Source: Planctomycetota bacterium (GTDB lineage: Bacteria; Planctomycetota; UBA8742; UBA2392). Taken from it: 64,000 bases of DNA. The translations under genes and the position numbers were made by a program. The notes under the pieces were generated by a model, which worked only from the letters and a program-made list of their open reading frames with translations, was not told the DNA's origin and made no database searches. Where the stretch lies: contig JAIOJA010000020.1 of assembly GCA_019912315.1 (NCBI GenBank), forward strand, positions 32,547 through 96,546, given 5' to 3'. Each line of letters begins with the position of its first letter. Position 1 is the first letter of the stretch. Positions 22,000-39,936 of the stretch are shown piece after piece.

Positions 22000-24531
22000 C
22001 TATTTCCGCTCATCATTATTTTCATTGCGCCAGACGAACTCGCCGCCGTTGACGGACCAGTCCGGGCCCAGAAATCCCGCCGCAACGACGCCGGCAGTAC
22101 CAATTTTCAGCATCTCGGGCGAATACAGGATGACATCCGGAAACGAGGCGCCGGATACGAAATATCCCAGGCGATCTGTGAGTTGTATTCCTTCAACACC
22201 CGTGCCGCCGATGACGCCAACACAGTTATTGTCACTACCGTTTCGGGGATAAGTAAACAGCATGGCAAGATCCTCACCCTCAACGATGCGTCCGCCGATC
22301 AAGGCCTTGCCCTTGCTGACGCGCAGGGGGCAGTCCTTGATCAGCTTGTCCCAGGCGCTGTTGGTGTCCGCGTTGCCGACGAGAATGACGTTGCGGTTCG
22401 GGTGGTCCGCCGGAGCAAAGTCCTTGTCTGCAACAACGTCGAATCCGCCGTTGCCCCGATACCACCAGGTCTCCTGGTCGTATCGGCACTTGGAAATGTA
22501 AGCCGCGGTTTCCTCGGGCGTGCCCTGAGTGCCGTAGACGTACATGAAATCGTGATTGAACGCGTTCTTGAACCAGCCGTAGCGATGCGGGCCCTTGAGG
22601 GACGCATCGGACGCTTCAATGACTTTCCAGGCACCGTCAATCATTTCGAGGTGAACTCTGCCGCTAGCAGGCCATGACGTTTTGATTTCCGTACCGTCGA
22701 GTTGGATGACCACTTCGTCGCGCTCTGAAATGACCCCTGCTACCTGCAACGACAGACGCACGACATTGTCAGTCTCGCCCTGGAAAATTCCCCGGTTGGG
22801 AAACAGTTCAATCTGGACGCGACTCGGCGCGAACTGCTTGCCCTGCATCTCAATGCGCGCCCAATGACAGTCGGCCGAGTGTTCCGGGCAGACAGTCGTA
22901 AAATCGACGTGCTGAACCTCGTTGATGCGCGGCAGGCGGCGGCGCGCGAACATGTCGAACATGGGGCGCCAGTCCACGCAATCCGCCCCGCCGTCATGCC
23001 CGCGATCCCACCAATGACCGGCCCCGGGTTCTTCGTAATAGCCGACGTCCGTGTGGAACTCTCTCAGTACATCGCGCATCTTGCGCGCCTGGGTGACGGG
23101 CACGTTGTCGTCCGCATCGCCGTGCAGGATGTAGACGCCCTGTTGCGAGTAATTGTGTTTGCGAAGCAGCGTGCGGCAGGGGTTGGCAGCACGAGTGAGT
23201 ATTTCCGAAACCGGCAGCTCTTCGGGGTGCGATGCGCCGCCGCCGTAGCTCCAGAAATCTTCCCAGCCTGCGCTAGGGCCGATGGCTGCGAACTTGTCCG
23301 GAAAGTGAGAGCCCACAGTCCAGGCGCCATGCCCACCCATGGAGTGCCCGGTCAGCCAGACCTTGGTCGGATCGTGTTCCAGTGTCGCCTGCGCATGGGC
23401 CAGCACCTCCAACGCATCCAGACGCCCCCAGTCCTCCCAGTCAAACCCAAACGGGCGCCGGTTCGTCGGACAAACAATGTGGCACCAAGACTTCGAGCTG
23501 TAAGCCCCAGCCTGCCCGCGCGCTTCGACAGACGCGCCGTGAAGTGACAGCACAATGCCGGGCTTGTCCTCTACGTAGTGAAACGGATGCGCTGGGCGAA
23601 CTGCGTAGTATTGAATCGAGCCATCTATCGCGCTCTTGAATGTCACCTTGCGAGGCTCGTGTGCTTCAACGACTTTGTACTTCAGAATCTGAAACACTCC
23701 GCCAAGAGATTCATTCTCCGGCGTCCGGGCAGTCTTTACACTGAAATGAACAGTCACGTCGTACTCTCCAGCTTCGAGTTCCTTCTCGACTTCGATTCTG
23801 AACGGAATCTTCCGAACCGACATCGCTGGAATTGCGTAAGTACCCTCTGAGACGTAAGCGCCATTCGGCCGTCTGAAACTTGTTGATGCCCAGACTGGCT
23901 CGGGCATTGGATTCACAGCAGCAACTGAACCCAGATGCGTTCCAATCGTAGTCCCGACAACCAGATCAGGGACCGTAGCATCGCGACCGTTGATATACGG
24001 TGTTTTGTGCGTCCACTTCTGCAAGTTGGCCTTCACTCGCCCGCGGCCGGTGTTGAACAGGAACTCGTTGCTTCCCTTCTTGAGCAGCACCGGCAATTCG
24101 ACGTAACCGTAGTTGTAGGGGTCGCCGGCGCGGGACTCACCGTTTACGTAAACGCTGGAGTGTCCGCGGGCCTTGAGGATGACTACCTGCTCCTTGTCCG
24201 ACTCGACGGCCCAGAACACGTAGGCCATGTTGTCTTCGCTGATCCAGCCTTTGTCGTCGGCGCTGACTTTGCGCCATTCGACCTGCGTGCCGTCTGCGCA
24301 GGCAACTTTGTCGCCGGGCTTGGGCACCTTGAAAGTGCCGTCGACCATGCTGGCGACAACCGTGCTGGAGTAAACAGGACTACGACCAGCGTAGCCCACG
24401 CCCGGCAAGGCCAGTGCTTCCGTCAAAACGAACGGGTCAGGCTCGGGCGCCTCGTCCTGTGCTACGAAATTGTCGGGTTGATAAGGAAGGAAGCACAGCA
24501 GCAGAATCGCCGCCCAGAAGCATCGTGACAT
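22000..24531 (-). CDS. Secreted alpha/beta-hydrolase (prolyl oligopeptidase/esterase type)
   Basis: About 843 residues; the second of two adjacent ATGs has better spacing from GGAG. A signal peptide (AAILLLCFLPYQPDN) is followed by a carbohydrate-binding or beta-sandwich region to about residue 330. The hydrolase core then has GIVLSLHGASVEARGQ, the nucleophile elbow GHSMGGHGAW, the acid region LHGDADDNVPV and the catalytic histidine in GAGHWWDRG. This matches the large secreted S9/esterase D-like hydrolases common in planctomycetes, thought to act on polysaccharide esters or peptides. A C-terminal domain of about 250 residues is of unknown function. It is a single gene with short gaps on both sides. 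Confidence 0.85.
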   Translation of the reverse strand: MSRCFWAAILLLCFLPYQPDNFVAQDEAPEPDPFVLTEALALPGVGYAGRSPVYSSTVVASMVDGTFKVPKPGDKVACADGTQVEWRKVSADDKGWISEDNMAYVFWAVESDKEQVVILKARGHSSVYVNGESRAGDPYNYGYVELPVLLKKGSNEFLFNTGRGRVKANLQKWTHKTPYINGRDATVPDLVVGTTIGTHLGSVAAVNPMPEPVWASTSFRRPNGAYVSEGTYAIPAMSVRKIPFRIEVEKELEAGEYDVTVHFSVKTARTPENESLGGVFQILKYKVVEAHEPRKVTFKSAIDGSIQYYAVRPAHPFHYVEDKPGIVLSLHGASVEARGQAGAYSSKSWCHIVCPTNRRPFGFDWEDWGRLDALEVLAHAQATLEHDPTKVWLTGHSMGGHGAWTVGSHFPDKFAAIGPSAGWEDFWSYGGGASHPEELPVSEILTRAANPCRTLLRKHNYSQQGVYILHGDADDNVPVTQARKMRDVLREFHTDVGYYEEPGAGHWWDRGHDGGADCVDWRPMFDMFARRRLPRINEVQHVDFTTVCPEHSADCHWARIEMQGKQFAPSRVQIELFPNRGIFQGETDNVVRLSLQVAGVISERDEVVIQLDGTEIKTSWPASGRVHLEMIDGAWKVIEASDASLKGPHRYGWFKNAFNHDFMYVYGTQGTPEETAAYISKCRYDQETWWYRGNGGFDVVADKDFAPADHPNRNVILVGNADTNSAWDKLIKDCPLRVSKGKALIGGRIVEGEDLAMLFTYPRNGSDNNCVGVIGGTGVEGIQLTDRLGYFVSGASFPDVILYSPEMLKIGTAGVVAAGFLGPDWSVNGGEFVWRNENNDERK

Positions 24532-32451: not shown

Positions 32452-33627
32452 CTAGTACTTCGCCATGCCGGGGTCGATTTCGTCGGCCCAGCGCAGTACG
32501 CCGCCGACCAGGTCGCGGACCTTTGTAAAACCTTGCTCCTGCAGATATGCCTGGGCCCTCGCCGAGCGCCCGCCGCTGCGTCAGTACAGCACGAACTCTT
32601 TGTCCTTGTAGGGCGCAAGCTCACTGACGCGTTCCGCGAATTCGGGCATCGGGATCCAGGCGTCGTAGTCCAGCTTGCAGATGTCGAGCTCGTTGGCGTT
32701 GCGCAAATCAACCAGATAGGGCTTGTCCCCCTTGTCCATGCGCTCCTTCAACTCCTGCGGCGTGATCTTTTCCGGCGTGCTTTCTTCGGCCTTGGCCTGA
32801 GCTTCCATGGCTTTCAACGCTTCCTCATTGGGAATGCCGCAAAACTGGTTGTAGTCGATCAGTTCATGGATCGTGCGTTTATCGCCGCAGATCGGGCACT
32901 TCGGGTCTTTGCGAATTTTCAGCTCGCGGAACTTAAAGGTCAGGGCGTCGAACACCTGCAGGCGCCCCTTCAGCGGCTCGCCAATACCGGTAAGCACCTT
33001 GATGACTTCCAGGGCCTGCAACGTCCCCATGATACCCGGCAGCACGCCCAGCACACCGCCCTCGGCGCAGCTTGGCACCATTCCTGGCGGCGGCGGGTCC
33101 GGGTACAGGCAACGGTAGCAAGGCCCGTCCTTCATGCCGAACACCGTGGCCTGGCCATCGAAACGGAAGATGCTGGCGTACACGTTGACCTTGCCCTCGA
33201 GCACGCAGGCGTCATTCACCAGGTAGCGAGTAGGAAAGTTGTCCGTGCCGTCGGCGACCACGTCGTACTCGCGGATGATCTCGCGGGCGTTGGCGCTGCT
33301 GATCGCGGCCTCGTGAATCTTCACGTTGACGTGCGGATTCAGGTCCTTAATCCGGTTCGCCGCGCTGACCACTTTGCGCTCGCCCACCGTGCTCTGCCCG
33401 TGAATGATCTGGCGCTGGAGATTTGATACGTCGACGACGTCAAAGTCCATGATGCCCAGCGTGCCGACACCCGCCGCGGCCAGGTACATCGCCATCGGCG
33501 AGCCGAGCCCGCCCGCGCCGACGCACAGGACCTTGCTGGCTTTCAGTTTCTCCTGCCCCGCCTTGCCGAACTCCGGCAGAATCAGGTGTCGCGCGTAACG
33601 CTGGACTTCGTCGCTGGTAAGTGTCAT
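32452..33627 (-). CDS. MoeB/ThiF-type adenylyltransferase fused to a selenocysteine rhodanese
   Basis: 391 residues when the in-frame TGA at 32581-32583 is read as selenocysteine (U349). The N-terminal E1-like domain has YARHLILPEFG, GAGGLGSP (37-44), DFDVVDVSNLQRQI and zinc cysteines in RCLYP and CPICGD. A linker leads to a rhodanese domain (PYLVDLRNANELDICKLDYDAWIPM). Without read-through the protein would stop just before the active loop, at EFVLY; with it the loop is YURSGGRSARA, followed by a normal helix and VRDLVGGVLRWADEIDPGM to a TAG at 32452. Such fusions activate a ThiS/MoaD-type sulfur carrier and pass sulfur to it. Start: the ATG giving MTLTSDEVQRYARHL. Confidence 0.88.
32553..32571 (-). 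promoter_or_regulatory. Candidate SECIS hairpin of moeB-rhodanese
   Basis: In mRNA sense: GGGC, one G-G mismatch, CTC, loop GGC, GAG, GCCC. The loop begins about 17 nt after the UGA, within the usual range for bacterial SECIS elements, and starts with GG. It overlaps the conserved active-loop codons, so sequence alone does not prove function. Confidence 0.5.
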
Positions 33628-36190: not shown

Positions 36191-38077
36191 ATGCATGAGC
36201 TGCTGCCACACATCCTCGCCCAGGCGCGGCGCGGGCCCTGCCCCACCTGCGGCGCACCATTACAGCTTGCGGAATCAGGACGCGAGGCCCGTTGCAATTT
36301 CTGCGGCGGCGCTTCAACACTGAGTTACACCCTGCGCGCCATCGAGCCCGAGGCCGCGAAACTTGAAAAAGCCCGCATCAAGGGCGCCACACGCTGGATG
36401 AAAAAGCAGGCAGCCTATGAGCCCTGCACCTGCCCCGGCTGCGGCGCGGAATTCAACGCCGACACCAGCCAGAGCATCCAGTCGTGCAAATACTGCGGCG
36501 CCGAGAGCAAGCTGGAAACGCGACTCCTGCCGATCACCACAGACGACGTCGCCGAGCCCCAGGAGCGCACCCGTGCTGATGCCGAAAACCAGCGTCGCGG
36601 CCGCATCGACTACCCCTGGAGTATCAGCGGCGAGCAACTTGTCTGGCGCCTGCTGCATGAGCCCGACGCCGGCACGCGCGTCAACGTCGCGAGCTACTAC
36701 AACAAGTGGATCTACATCGACCACACCGCCGCGCACTTTCTGCCCTGGACCCTGCGCGTGATCCAGCGCGACGTGGATGCCGTCGCCTTCATGGCCGCAG
36801 ACGTGATCGGCAAGCTGCTATGCGAGGGCGACCCGACGCTCTGGCCCGGCGTGATACAGGCCGTGCGTGGCGTCGTGTTCGACGCGAATGTGAAACCTTG
36901 CATCGTCCAGGAATTGGCGCTTGGCGAAGGGGTGTGCGTCAAGACTCTGATCGACGCGGCGGAGTACGCCGCGGGTAACGGTGTGCTTGGGCAGGCCTGG
37001 CCCGCGCTGTGGGGCGTGCAGACCCTGATCGGTCGAAACTTCGACGAGCACCCGGTGATCGCGCAGATCGTCCTGTATCGTCTGTTCTATCTCAACGGCC
37101 CGGTGCTTGGCTGGGCGCTGGATGCCCTGCGCAACAGCTACCTTCGCGGGCGCTACCCGATTGAGTTTCTGCTGCGCGCGATCGACGAGATCGGCGCTGA
37201 ACGCCCGCAAATCGTGCCGCACCTGCTGGAGTGCCTCTACATCGGCCCGGCCGAGAACGCCGACGAATTCCGCAAACGCCTGAGCTGGATTCGCGAGGCC
37301 ATCAGCTGGGGCGGCAAGGCTGCGGCGTTCGAGTTGCTTTACACGCCACCGGTTGATGACCGCGCTTTGTATGAGGAAGCGATTGATCTGGTGGACGAAT
37401 ACCTGGATGACCCGCAGGCCGGCGAATCTGTCGAGACCGCGCTGATGCGCCTGATCACGAACGAGCGTGAGCACACGAACCCGGCCATCGATGCGCTGAT
37501 TGTGAAACGTGGCGAGAGTTTGAATGACCGCGTCAAGCGCGAGTACATCCGGCGCAACCCGCAGACGGCGCTGCTCGACACCAGCAAACCCTACTACTGG
37601 CAAAGCGAACCGAAGCGCGCATTGAGTCCAGAACTGGAAGCCCTGGTCGCGCAATGGAAGCAGGGAATCCGCGACGGAGTGGATGACTACCGGACGCGCA
37701 TGGACGCAGCCCGCAAATTCCGCGACAGCGTACAGGGCGAAGTTGAGCTGTTCCTGCGCGACGGGCCCGCGACGATTCCCCTGACTGAAACCGCCGCCGC
37801 GGAGGTCGAGAAGGATCGCAAGCAGAAGCAACGAAACGCCGAACGCAAGCAGCGACAACCCGAGGTCGACCGCATACAGGCGGAGATGAACCGCGTGCAA
37901 AGCGAGTACAGCCAGAAGCTGATGGACATGTCCGGTAAGATGCAGGACTCCATGCACGACCAGAAAGCCATGCAGGACTACTCCGCGCAAATGATGAAGC
38001 TCGCCGAAGAAATGCAGACCAGAATCGGTGCGCTGCAAAAAGAGTTGCAGCGCCTGCTAAGCCATGAGGCCGAATGA
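36191..38077 (+). CDS. Zinc-ribbon and coiled-coil protein of unknown function
   Basis: 628 residues. Two zinc ribbons open the chain: CPTCGAPLQL with CNFCGG (about residues 17-40), and CPGCGAEFN with CKYCGAE (about 79-105). A long helical middle (residues 150-460) looks like HEAT/ARM-type repeats, including LLRAIDEIGAERPQIVPHLLE and AISWGGKAAAFELL. The last 130 residues are a charged coiled coil with runs such as KDRKQKQRNAERKQRQ. No enzymatic motif is seen. A protein-interaction scaffold is likely. The stop codon overlaps the start of the next gene (ATGA), so the two are translationally coupled. Confidence 0.82.
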   Translation: MHELLPHILAQARRGPCPTCGAPLQLAESGREARCNFCGGASTLSYTLRAIEPEAAKLEKARIKGATRWMKKQAAYEPCTCPGCGAEFNADTSQSIQSCKYCGAESKLETRLLPITTDDVAEPQERTRADAENQRRGRIDYPWSISGEQLVWRLLHEPDAGTRVNVASYYNKWIYIDHTAAHFLPWTLRVIQRDVDAVAFMAADVIGKLLCEGDPTLWPGVIQAVRGVVFDANVKPCIVQELALGEGVCVKTLIDAAEYAAGNGVLGQAWPALWGVQTLIGRNFDEHPVIAQIVLYRLFYLNGPVLGWALDALRNSYLRGRYPIEFLLRAIDEIGAERPQIVPHLLECLYIGPAENADEFRKRLSWIREAISWGGKAAAFELLYTPPVDDRALYEEAIDLVDEYLDDPQAGESVETALMRLITNEREHTNPAIDALIVKRGESLNDRVKREYIRRNPQTALLDTSKPYYWQSEPKRALSPELEALVAQWKQGIRDGVDDYRTRMDAARKFRDSVQGEVELFLRDGPATIPLTETAAAEVEKDRKQKQRNAERKQRQPEVDRIQAEMNRVQSEYSQKLMDMSGKMQDSMHDQKAMQDYSAQMMKLAEEMQTRIGALQKELQRLLSHEAE

Positions 38078-38886
38078 GCGAGTATGACGCCATTGGCAGG
38101 TCCGAGAAGCCGGCGACGGTGGAGTCCCTGGTTGCGGACCTGCGCGCGCTAGGCGTAGACACCGGGCAGGTTCTGCTGGTGCATACTTCTTTGTCCGCGC
38201 TGGGGTGGGTGGCCGGCGGAGCACAGGCAGTGGTGATGGCGTTGCAGTCTGTGGTGACGGACGCAGGCACCCTGGTCATGCCCGCGCACAGCACGGGCAA
38301 CAGCGACCCCCGGCGCTGGGAGAACCCGCCGGTCCCGTATTCATGGCATGACGATGTCCGCGCCCACATGCCCGCCTTCGACCGTAACCTTACGCCTACG
38401 CGCGGCATGGGAGCAGTCGCCGAGCTGTTCCGCCGCGCGCCGGACGTGCGCCGCTCGGGGCACCCGGCCATGAGCTTTGCGGCCTGGGGGCGCTACGCCC
38501 ACGCGATCACGGCCGAGCATCGCCTGAATTCGGGTCTCGGCGAGGATTCGCCGCTGGCGCGCGTGTACGACCTCGAAGGCAAGGTTCTGTTGCTCGGCGT
38601 CGGGCACGACCGAAACACATCGCTGCACCTCTGCGAATACCGAGCAGACTGGCCGGGGCGCAAGGTCATCAAGTACGGCAGCGCGATCCTGATCGGCGAG
38701 GCACGCCAGTGGGTCAACTATGACGACCTCGAGGTCAACTCGGGTGACTTCGCGGAGATCGGGTGGGATTTCATCCAGTCTGGACGCGTCAAGATGGGCA
38801 ACGTGGGCGGCGGCAAATCGCAGCTTATGAGTCAGCGAGATCTCGTGGACTTCGGCGTGGATTGGATCGGGCGTAAGCGCAAATGA
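38074..38886 (+). CDS. Aminoglycoside 3-N-acetyltransferase family (AAC(3)/YokD-like)
   Basis: 270 residues, the family length. Conserved blocks: VLLVHTSLSALGWVAGGAQAVV near residue 33, GTLVMPAHSTGNSDPRRW, RGMGAVAELFRR, HPAMSFAAWGRYA and LLLGVGHDRNTSLHL, which contain the acetyl-CoA and active-site residues (His in GHDRNTSLHL). The fold class includes antibiotic-modifying enzymes and many chromosomal members whose substrate is unknown, so resistance should not be assumed. Coupled by a 4-bp overlap to the zinc-ribbon protein gene. A GC-rich terminator begins at the base after its stop codon. Confidence 0.9.
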   Translation: MSEYDAIGRSEKPATVESLVADLRALGVDTGQVLLVHTSLSALGWVAGGAQAVVMALQSVVTDAGTLVMPAHSTGNSDPRRWENPPVPYSWHDDVRAHMPAFDRNLTPTRGMGAVAELFRRAPDVRRSGHPAMSFAAWGRYAHAITAEHRLNSGLGEDSPLARVYDLEGKVLLLGVGHDRNTSLHLCEYRADWPGRKVIKYGSAILIGEARQWVNYDDLEVNSGDFAEIGWDFIQSGRVKMGNVGGGKSQLMSQRDLVDFGVDWIGRKRK

Positions 38887-38912
38887 ACGACGCCGGGCGA
38901 ACCCGGCGTCGT
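38887..38912. terminator. Bidirectional hairpin between convergent genes
   Basis: A perfect 11-bp stem ACGACGCCGGG/CCCGGCGTCGT with loop CGAA, starting directly after the AAC(3)-like stop codon. It lies 14 bp from the stop of the leftward UGA-containing gene. Its position supports the end of that gene at 38926 rather than at the TGA. Confidence 0.7.
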
Positions 38913-38925
38913 GGAAACACTTCGC

Positions 38926-39825
38926 TTACTTGCTCTTTGCGGTCTTGTCCTGCACTTCCTTGCCGAACTTCTTCCAGAAATTCTTGTACTTCGCGGGCTC
39001 CGGACGCTCGTCGCTGCCTGCGCCGTTGCCGGTTTTCTCACCGGGCTTGTCGCCCTGCCAGTTCTCCTCGTCGGAGCCCCGGGCGTGCTCACCGGCGACG
39101 TTGTCTTTCGGGTCCTCCCCAGGGCCGGGCTGGTAGCCTTCCTCGGCGCCCTTGGACGACTTCGAAGCTTCCTGCTTTTCACCCTTGCCGCGCGGATCGT
39201 TCGATTTCGGCTGACCAGCCGAGCTTACGCCGCCACCCTGTCAGCAGGATCGTGATTTGATCTCGTGCGCGACTTCCAGGCTTTCGTCAATGTTCTCTTC
39301 GGCCTTGGCCGTCGACTCTTCCGCCCGCTTGAGGGCGTCTTCCACACGACGCTCAATCTTCACCTGTCGCGAAAGAATGTCCTCGAAGGCTGACTCGCTG
39401 TCGGCCAGCTTCTTCAGAACATCCGGGCTCTGGCCCAGCAGTTTGCGCAATTCCGCTTCGTCTTCGGCGATCTGTTTGAATTCATCGACGGACTTGCCGG
39501 TCAGCTTTGCGGCCTCCTCCGGGTTGTCGCGCAGGTATTCACGGACGCTCTCCGGCAACTCGTCCACCTCGCCGCTACGCATCTGCTCTCGGAGGCGCTC
39601 CATGCGTTCGGCGACGATGTCCGGCTTGGCTGAGCCCAGCGAAGTTTTGGCGAGCTCATCTTCAAGCCCGTCCATCTCCTTGCTGGCGTCCTTCATCAGC
39701 TTGTGAAGATCCTTCAGCAATTCGTCGCGACTCTTGGAGGCAAGGTCTTTCTCCTTTTCCTCCTGCGCGAAGGTCGGCGCGGCAAGCAGCCCGCAGCACG
39801 CCAGCATCAACAAGACCTTTTTCAC
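38926..39825 (-). CDS. Secreted coiled-coil protein with Ser-Cys-Sec motif; candidate new selenoprotein
   Basis: 299 residues if the TGA at 39241-39243 is selenocysteine (U195); it would be 194 otherwise. The GTG start has CCGGAGG 5 bp upstream. A cleavable signal peptide (VLLMLACCGLLAAPTFA) is followed by a helical, charged domain (residues about 25-185) with coiled-coil spacing. At 192-199 the chain reads RSCUQGGG, then 100 Gly-, Lys- and Glu-rich residues, without another stop, to a TAA at 38926; a convergent terminator lies right after that TAA. Codon use in the extension matches the rest. I do not recognise the family; an adjacent Cys-Sec pair suggests a redox or metal role outside the cytoplasm. 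Confidence 0.75.
39207..39222 (-). promoter_or_regulatory. Candidate SECIS hairpin of the SCU protein gene
   Basis: In mRNA sense TCGGCT, loop GGTC, AGCCGA: a 6-bp perfect stem whose loop begins 24 nt after the UGA. In E. coli fdhF the SelB-binding loop contains GGUC, so the match is notable. Confidence 0.6.
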
Positions 39826-39936
39826 GGAAACCTCCGGTTCAGGGAACGGGGCCTACCCTTATTGTACGTCTATTGAGCCCGCCCGGTTCAGGACTTTTCC
39901 GGGGAATTTCAGTCGCTTGGCGGATCGGCACAGGCC

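Follow-up and report, generated by a model that had tools for sequence, protein, structure and literature searches.

The window analysed here is a stretch of 64,000 nucleotides from a Planctomycetota bacterium (assembly GCA_019912315.1, contig JAIOJA010000020.1, forward-strand positions 32,547 to 96,546), and on its reverse strand lies a gene whose reading frame holds a single internal TGA, at codon 195, beyond which 104 further codons lead to a TAA (Table 1). A preliminary description of this DNA had drawn attention to a frame that stays open past a TGA following RSC, and this is confirmed in the sequence, the residues ahead of the UGA being ...EVAHEIKSRSC. Were the UGA read as selenocysteine (Sec), the mature protein would contain exactly one Cys and one Sec. 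By eye, the N terminus comprises KK, a hydrophobic run and an AxA-like end, and the protein is predicted to be exported or secreted; ahead of the gene, the sequence CGGAGGT is present upstream of all five UGA-bearing copies from the same genus. Downstream, the gene converges on an aminoglycoside N3-acetyltransferase-like gene (38074-38886, +; Pfam Antibiotic_NAT, 303.7 bits), and the convergent terminator that had been placed near the TAA was found as an 11-bp hairpin 13 bp beyond it. The upstream neighbour on the same strand is panB. An alternative genetic code was considered and rejected, given that the convergent neighbour itself ends in TGA (38884-38886) and that family members lacking the UGA are read normally.

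Table 1. The predicted selenoprotein gene and associated features, in window coordinates.
Feature	Position	Strand	Details
Predicted selenoprotein gene	38926..39825	-	299 codons, GTG start to TAA stop; Sec at codon 195
In-frame UGA (predicted selenocysteine; Cys194-Sec195)	39241..39243	-	From the frame and alignments of relatives
bSECIS-type hairpin TCGGCT-GGTC-AGCCGA	39207..39222	-	Loop begins nt 25 past the UGA
Post-Sec tail: probably disordered Gly/Lys/Glu-rich part and C-terminal helix	38929..39240	-	From alignments and structure model
Signal-peptide-like N terminus, residues 1-21	39763..39825	-	By eye; conserved among aligned relatives
ECF-type promoter motif GAAC-N17-CGT	39866..39889	-	64 nt ahead of the start codon
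Shine-Dalgarno GGAGG	39831..39835	-	Read from sequence
Terminator-like 11-bp hairpin between convergent genes	38887..38912	.	Read from sequence

Relatives of the gene are confined to a narrow group. Matches were obtained in 16 of 199 related genomes, the source genome included, all belonging to one family-level group; a profile run against 392 genomes from the phylum gave no full match outside that group, and weak partial matches in G221 (23 bits), G265 (29.3 bits) and, as a second match, G011 (23.9 bits) were left uncounted. A contig scan returned 18 loci, all titled as Planctomycetota metagenome assemblies (MAGs). Of the 16 matching genomes, 15 have a UGA-free copy, truncated in G004 where the contig ends, and seven (G000, G001, G002, G003, G005, G007 and G015) have a UGA copy whose tail is conserved. 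The site reads SC-U-QGG in L015, L017 and L018, GC-U-SGS in L034 and SC-U-SSS in L036, and takes the form SS-U-QGGS-U-QS in L016 and L019, where two in-frame UGAs are separated by four residues. These last two copies have no Cys in the mature part and two predicted Sec; L036 has an additional Cys within the helical part. The UGA occupies a single column in the six copies that were aligned, that is, with L019 left out, which matches L016 around the site; in wider alignments the UGA of L036 lies two columns earlier.

UGA-free copies have QGQGQG or similar at the matching site. None of 37 UGA-free rows, among which are L030 (cut by a contig end) and P0021 (short), contains a Cys after residue 21. 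Hence, Sec appears never to have been swapped for Cys and, taken with the site readings, the unit would be either two chalcogens, as Cys-Sec or Sec-x4-Sec, or none at all. Homologues with Cys at the U position, which the preliminary description had proposed to look for, did not appear among these 37 rows. Identical rows were removed for this count and for the tree described below; L019, L037 and P0045, each with a frame break, were omitted from the count.

By contrast with the missing Cys homologues, the other type of relative that had been proposed, with conserved sequence on both sides of the UGA, turned up among the other UGA copies as well as the UGA-free paralogs. Alignments of full-length relatives continue through the UGA site, and the tails of six of the seven UGA copies contain no other type of stop and no frame break. 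Between UGA copies of the same genus, tail differences at codon positions 1, 2 and 3 amount to 0.27-0.42, 0.19-0.29 and 0.40-0.49 respectively, which is the pattern expected of translated sequence. Position 3 changes most in 13 of 15 tail pairs, the exceptions (L016-L036 and L034-L036) falling among the nine between-lineage pairs. The wide alignment excluded L019, L037 and L030, and the tail comparison excluded L019 and L037. The frame break of L019, which is the same place as L053 (G001), occurs late in the tail, where its close relative L016 has an intact frame.

A database of 5.8 billion proteins contained at least 44 clusters of the family among the 7994 best candidates scored. At least 19 of the 44 are 186-196 residues in length and finish at the UGA position, the final residues being Cys in ten, Ser-Ser in seven and Ser-Pro in two, with the UGA in most of these 19 read from where the protein ends rather than from the codon; for P0002, the window gene's own cluster, the ending was taken from tree labels. 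Short clusters that carry a name from their source are called 'hypothetical protein'. Pfam gave nothing over cut-off for four family members, NCBIfam gave no family at E 0.01 for three, and Rfam gave nothing for the whole window at the gathering threshold. Compared by name and, by eye, by motif, no entry of Table 1 of PMC13188914 (119 families and subfamilies), as far as that source was accessible, fits the gene. The accessible portions of the open-access literature, including PMC12013277 and PMC4807772, make no mention of the family, which may nonetheless be described elsewhere. The earlier remark that its author knew of no described family with SCUQGGG agrees with Pfam, NCBIfam and the accessible part of that Table 1 (PMC13188914). 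Relative to the lists checked, the family is apparently new, with neither Cys homologues nor a known redox fold, and with Cys-Sec and Sec-Sec that seem to be interchangeable.

Following the UGA, a hairpin of bSECIS type is present in all seven UGA copies and at the matching site in one of 14 UGA-free copies, L037 and L030 being left out of the count. The rule for these elements, as quoted from the accessible text of PMC13188914, specifies a loop of 3-9 nt with G in the first two positions, a stem of at least 4 and a loop placed 16-37 nt after the UGA. In the window gene a hairpin had been reported to start 24 nt after the UGA; the hairpin stands and the start does not, since the stem begins at nt 19 and the loop at nt 25, so that the 24 nt describe the interval to the loop. 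Three stems unrelated in sequence (TCGGCT/AGCCGA, GTCCCA/TGGGAC and GTTCTC/GAGAAC) share the same geometry, all with G in the first two loop positions, and this preservation of one geometry by unrelated stems is in effect covariation, as judged from sequence. L016 and L019 each have a single hairpin, whose loop lies at nt 31 from the first UGA and at nt 16 from the second, the edge of the rule, and one hairpin may thus serve two UGAs.

The strength of these hairpins is uneven. Short of the energy cut-off of -7.5 kcal/mol quoted in the accessible text of PMC13188914 are the L036 hairpin, taken by itself, at -5.8 kcal/mol, and the L034 hairpin, at -7.4 kcal/mol. Among 5000 synonymous recodings the observed energy was reached by 130 for L015, 107 for L018, 35 for L034 and three for L036, and in these four copies the hairpin is unusual; L017 is mildly unusual (292/5000), and L016 (1368/5000) and L019 (1336/5000) are unexceptional. 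A hairpin at least as stable as -5.8 kcal/mol, a cut-off chosen after the data were seen, follows 14.6% of the 2069 TGA triplets in the window, and for 4.8% it also has a stem of at least 6 and a GG or GU loop. In a window this rich in G+C, a bSECIS-type hairpin is by itself weak evidence.

The preliminary description had allowed that selA, selB, selC or selD might be absent from the genome; all four are present. The source genome encodes SelA (553 bits; cut-off 268), SelB (332 bits; cut-off 242), SelD (396 bits; cut-off 125), which has an in-frame TGA of its own, and a tRNA-Sec with a TCA anticodon (72.9 bits; cut-off 47). The survey of Sec genes covered 17 genomes, namely the 16 family genomes and G016. 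SelA was over cut-off in all 17, SelB in 16 and SelD in 16, G016 being the one without SelD; G003, itself a genome with a UGA copy, gave no SelB over cut-off. A tRNA-Sec of 69-75 bits occurs in all 16 family genomes, and the match in G016 scores just 47.5 bits, a level also reached by other tRNA-like matches in the surveyed genomes. Each of the 16 selD genes has one TGA, owing to which SelD is itself likely to be a selenoprotein in the family genomes, and this TGA may be taken as a sign that the 16 genomes use Sec. Fourteen named control genomes gave matches over cut-off for tRNA-Sec in five, SelB in two, SelA in one and SelD in two. G002 has two equal tRNA-Sec matches of 73.1 bits each (C28:59618-59706 and C48:28-116), one of them at a contig end, representing either a second copy or an assembly repeat.

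Two explanations would dispense with selenocysteine. The UGA could be a true stop and the gene a truncated copy followed by a decaying remnant, as public annotation implies in ending proteins there (the short clusters of 186-196 residues), and such a truncation history is conceivable because UGA-free, full-length paralogs exist. A decaying tail, however, would not remain under coding constraint or, in six of seven copies, free of other stops and frame breaks; nor would a stop be expected to sit at a helix end in separate lineages, beside a Cys or a second UGA, with a hairpin behind it and with Sec machinery and a TGA-bearing SelD in the genome. The preliminary description had also allowed that homologues might all end at the UGA, but tails are kept in UGA copies and UGA-free paralogs alike. 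Alternatively, a near-cognate tRNA could read the UGA at low efficiency without Sec and so produce two forms of the protein; readthrough of any kind would keep the tail selected, and the short form would amount to a helical domain of its own. It leaves unexplained, however, why Cys-UGA or UGA-x4-UGA pairs stand against Cys-free relatives, and likewise the hairpins and the full Sec machinery. Together, the constrained tail, the paired chalcogens, the hairpins and the Sec machinery led us to reject both the plain stop and Sec-free readthrough, each of which we regard as very improbable. By every feature open to computation the window gene is that of a predicted selenoprotein, and its UGA is almost certainly read as selenocysteine. 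The original proposal of a candidate new selenoprotein is supported by the conserved tails, the hairpins, the Sec genes and the lack of a family match.

The shape of the protein was modelled with AlphaFold2 on a 20-row alignment (mean pLDDT 62). The model has helices up to residue 195, the last spanning residues 144-195, and a C-terminal helix at 283-298; residues 195-238 and 242-273 fall below pLDDT 50. Since helix 144-195 ends there, Sec would stand at the junction between the long helix and a low-confidence tail, which is probably disordered. The model contains no strands and no Trx-like alpha/beta fold, and a search of PDB structures with it gave no match at E 0.001. A coiled coil is predicted, on the strength of this helical model of modest confidence.

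Family genes appear to share a promoter element with an operon headed by an ECF sigma gene. Of 21 family genes, 19 have the motif GAAC-N17-CGT 54-100 nt ahead of the start (7/7 UGA copies and 12/14 UGA-free copies, again with L037 and L030 left out), compared with a mean of 0.5-0.9 in base shuffles at spacings 16-18 and 15-19, a count that is biased because the pattern was found by eye on the same sequences. In L086 and L087 the UGA-free operon starts with the ECF sigma gene, whose product matches Pfam Sigma70 regions 2 and 4; behind it come a FecR-like gene (26.4 bits in L086, above the cut-off of 24, and 22.3 bits in L087, below it), a gene of 853 residues, a gene of ~1,300 residues and the family gene. 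In 12 of 14 loci this ~1,300-residue partner lies ahead of the UGA-free copy (the remaining two are interrupted by contig ends), and it has the motif upstream in 11 of 12 cases (shuffles 0.18). Ahead of the sigma gene the motif was found by script in five of six orthologs and by reading in the sixth, L090 of the source genome. In the 250 nt upstream of the FecR-like gene and of the 853-residue gene it was not found, as expected if a single transcript runs from the sigma gene. Three of four partner proteins give a weak partial match to DUF4175 (19.6-22.5 bits; cut-off 27.3). Homology between the family and the partner was considered and rejected, the BLASTP score being 23.9 bits (E 0.016) and the matches confined to helical, low-complexity sequence.

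AAC and CGT promoter boxes and autoregulation are hallmarks of ECF sigma factors in the accessible text of PMC8103513, and by that rule the Sec copies have the AAC and CGT boxes in common with the sigma gene. We think it probable, from these promoter sequences, that UGA copies are under ECF control, and the window protein is likely to be part of a cell-envelope stress response. The source genome's sigma ortholog (83% identity) is on another contig than the Sec copy, and in five UGA genomes the two lie on different contigs. In G007 and G015 the Sec copy is in tandem with a UGA-free copy. Upstream of L034, in G015, a GC-rich, terminator-like hairpin with a T run lies between the tandem UGA-free and Sec copies, and because it separates them the Sec copy there probably has its own promoter.

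A stricter form of the motif has two matches in the window, at 39866..39889 and at 23814 (+), the latter antisense within an open frame of 844 residues and probably due to chance. Genome-wide, the strict pattern occurs six times in G000 and 12 times in G003, against four and nine for backwards-pattern controls, and two and three of these matches, respectively, precede the system's own genes. Position within open frames longer than 250 codons separates nothing, because four of five system sites lie inside such frames, as do 12 of 13 other matches. We claim no further gene for a wider regulon.

The explanation that best joins these observations, and one that we hold with good confidence, is that Sec is likely inserted at a conserved UGA into a predicted exported helical protein, which would be induced through the ECF factor as a redox module of the envelope-stress response. 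Translation of the UGA would yield an exported 299-residue helical protein with adjacent Cys and Sec. On ECF activation, the UGA-free paralogs and the ~1,300-residue partner would form a helical scaffold in the envelope, which the Sec copy would join, adding a chalcogen pair at the end of the long helix and the foot of the flexible tail. The pair, Cys-Sec or, in two relatives, Sec-x4-Sec, would have a low redox potential and exchange quickly, cycling between a reduced state and a bond of selenenylsulfide (or diselenide) type. In doing so it could reduce oxidised envelope targets or report their oxidation, as a module for reduction, repair or sensing. A redox role for the pair is modestly favoured over its alternatives, the family having no homologue of known function.

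On chemistry, the main rival is that the pair captures a soft metal or metalloid, such as mercury, arsenic or copper, in the envelope and has no redox role. Pairs of Cys-Sec or Sec-Sec are suited to binding soft metals, and with a flexible tail behind it the pair would be well placed to capture a metal ion. In the accessible text of PMC13188914, several transport-related selenoproteins, among them SaoB and SaoC with their CU motifs, are tied to mercury or arsenic, which lends this reading some weight. Against it, 19 Pfam queries of neighbouring genes, a set that leaves out many open frames, revealed no metal transporter, methyltransferase or mercury or arsenic reductase, and we consider metal capture unlikely, if still a serious competitor. 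A further proposal is that the Sec copy is a sensor, in which oxidation of the pair alters the helical assembly and signals to the FecR-like protein as anti-sigma factor. The promoter motif common to the Sec copy and the sigma gene is what a feedback component should show, the FecR-like gene directly follows the sigma gene in L086 and L087, and the tandem arrangement of Sec and UGA-free copies in G015 and G007 also speaks for it. However, in the five other UGA genomes the Sec copy and sigma ortholog are on different contigs, and no Sec copy was found in nine of the 16 matching genomes (assemblies 76-94% complete), which makes a sensor the more doubtful of these two proposals.

A tree of 58 rows, built on the sequence ahead of the UGA, does not unite the rows labelled SEC in one clade and requires at least five changes (p-AU 1e-46), a test that rests on the label, most of the 22 such rows being truncated database proteins labelled by their end; P0045 and P0021 were left out. 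For both parts of the gene, the closest sequence to L036 is L029, its tandem UGA-free neighbour (76% and 60%); L034 lies closest to UGA-free genes of its own genus. Sec may have been gained several times, tandem copies may exchange sequence, or Sec may be old and often lost. Tentatively, and with the balance of probability leaning slightly the other way, we suggest that Sec is here an added function and never a better Cys: a single planctomycete lineage would repeatedly have equipped a copy of a structural, Cys-free envelope protein with Cys-Sec or Sec-Sec at the same place, together with newly evolved SECIS hairpins, and would have kept that copy under the autoregulated ECF sigma factor that also controls the scaffold, giving a selenium redox switch in the envelope.

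Comparable arrangements are known from other proteins. The eukaryotic SELENOS (VIMP) is a stress-linked membrane-compartment protein of the ER that in mammals consists of a helical coiled coil followed by a disordered, Gly-rich tail with a Cys/Sec redox pair, Sec being near the very end. The window protein resembles it in architecture only, no homology being expected, and unlike SELENOS has ~100 residues and a C-terminal helix after the Sec. Mammalian thioredoxin reductase bears adjacent Cys and Sec (GCUG) on a flexible element and can form a selenenylsulfide; unlike that enzyme, the window protein shows no flavin or Trx-like domain. In the names of selenoproteins, 'star' denotes Sec at the C terminus. 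The CU-motif selenoproteins SaoC, MbdU and KCU-star, as listed in the accessible part of Table 1 of PMC13188914, likewise combine adjacent Cys-Sec with a UGA and a downstream hairpin. Unlike these, the present family has the pair between a long helix and a tail of ~100 residues, matches no NCBIfam profile and includes two relatives with a second Sec instead of the Cys. As for DUF4175/TIGR02302, only the partner gene matches, below cut-off, and the selenoprotein family itself does not. PgpD of Shewanella, in the accessible text of PMC4336711, is an exported glutathione peroxidase under an ECF promoter (CGTAAT at -10, TGATCC at -35); the likeness lies in an exported redox protein under ECF control, whereas the window protein is unrelated, helical and has Sec and a GAAC element.

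According to the accessible text of PMC12013277, the deep-Sep method may miss selenoproteins that lack Cys homologues, and the present family marks a class that finders relying on such homologues could overlook. It would furthermore provide a natural test of the gain of Sec without a Cys ancestor and would link selenium to an ECF envelope regulon.

The immediate surroundings of the Sec copy vary. In three genomes an RDD gene lies ~80 bp before it, beside SpoIIM, DUF58, MoxR-type AAA and DUF4350 genes, as assigned by Pfam for L039 and by clustering for L040 and L053. An operon with panB was rejected, the upstream gene being RDD in L039, L040 and L053. Neither panB nor the RDD neighbourhood defines a function, because the upstream neighbour differs among relatives. 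In the source genome and G002, the RDD gene and the Sec copy are on separate contigs. On the other side of the gene, a neighbour of Antibiotic_NAT type also follows the Sec copy in L038, L039 and L040.
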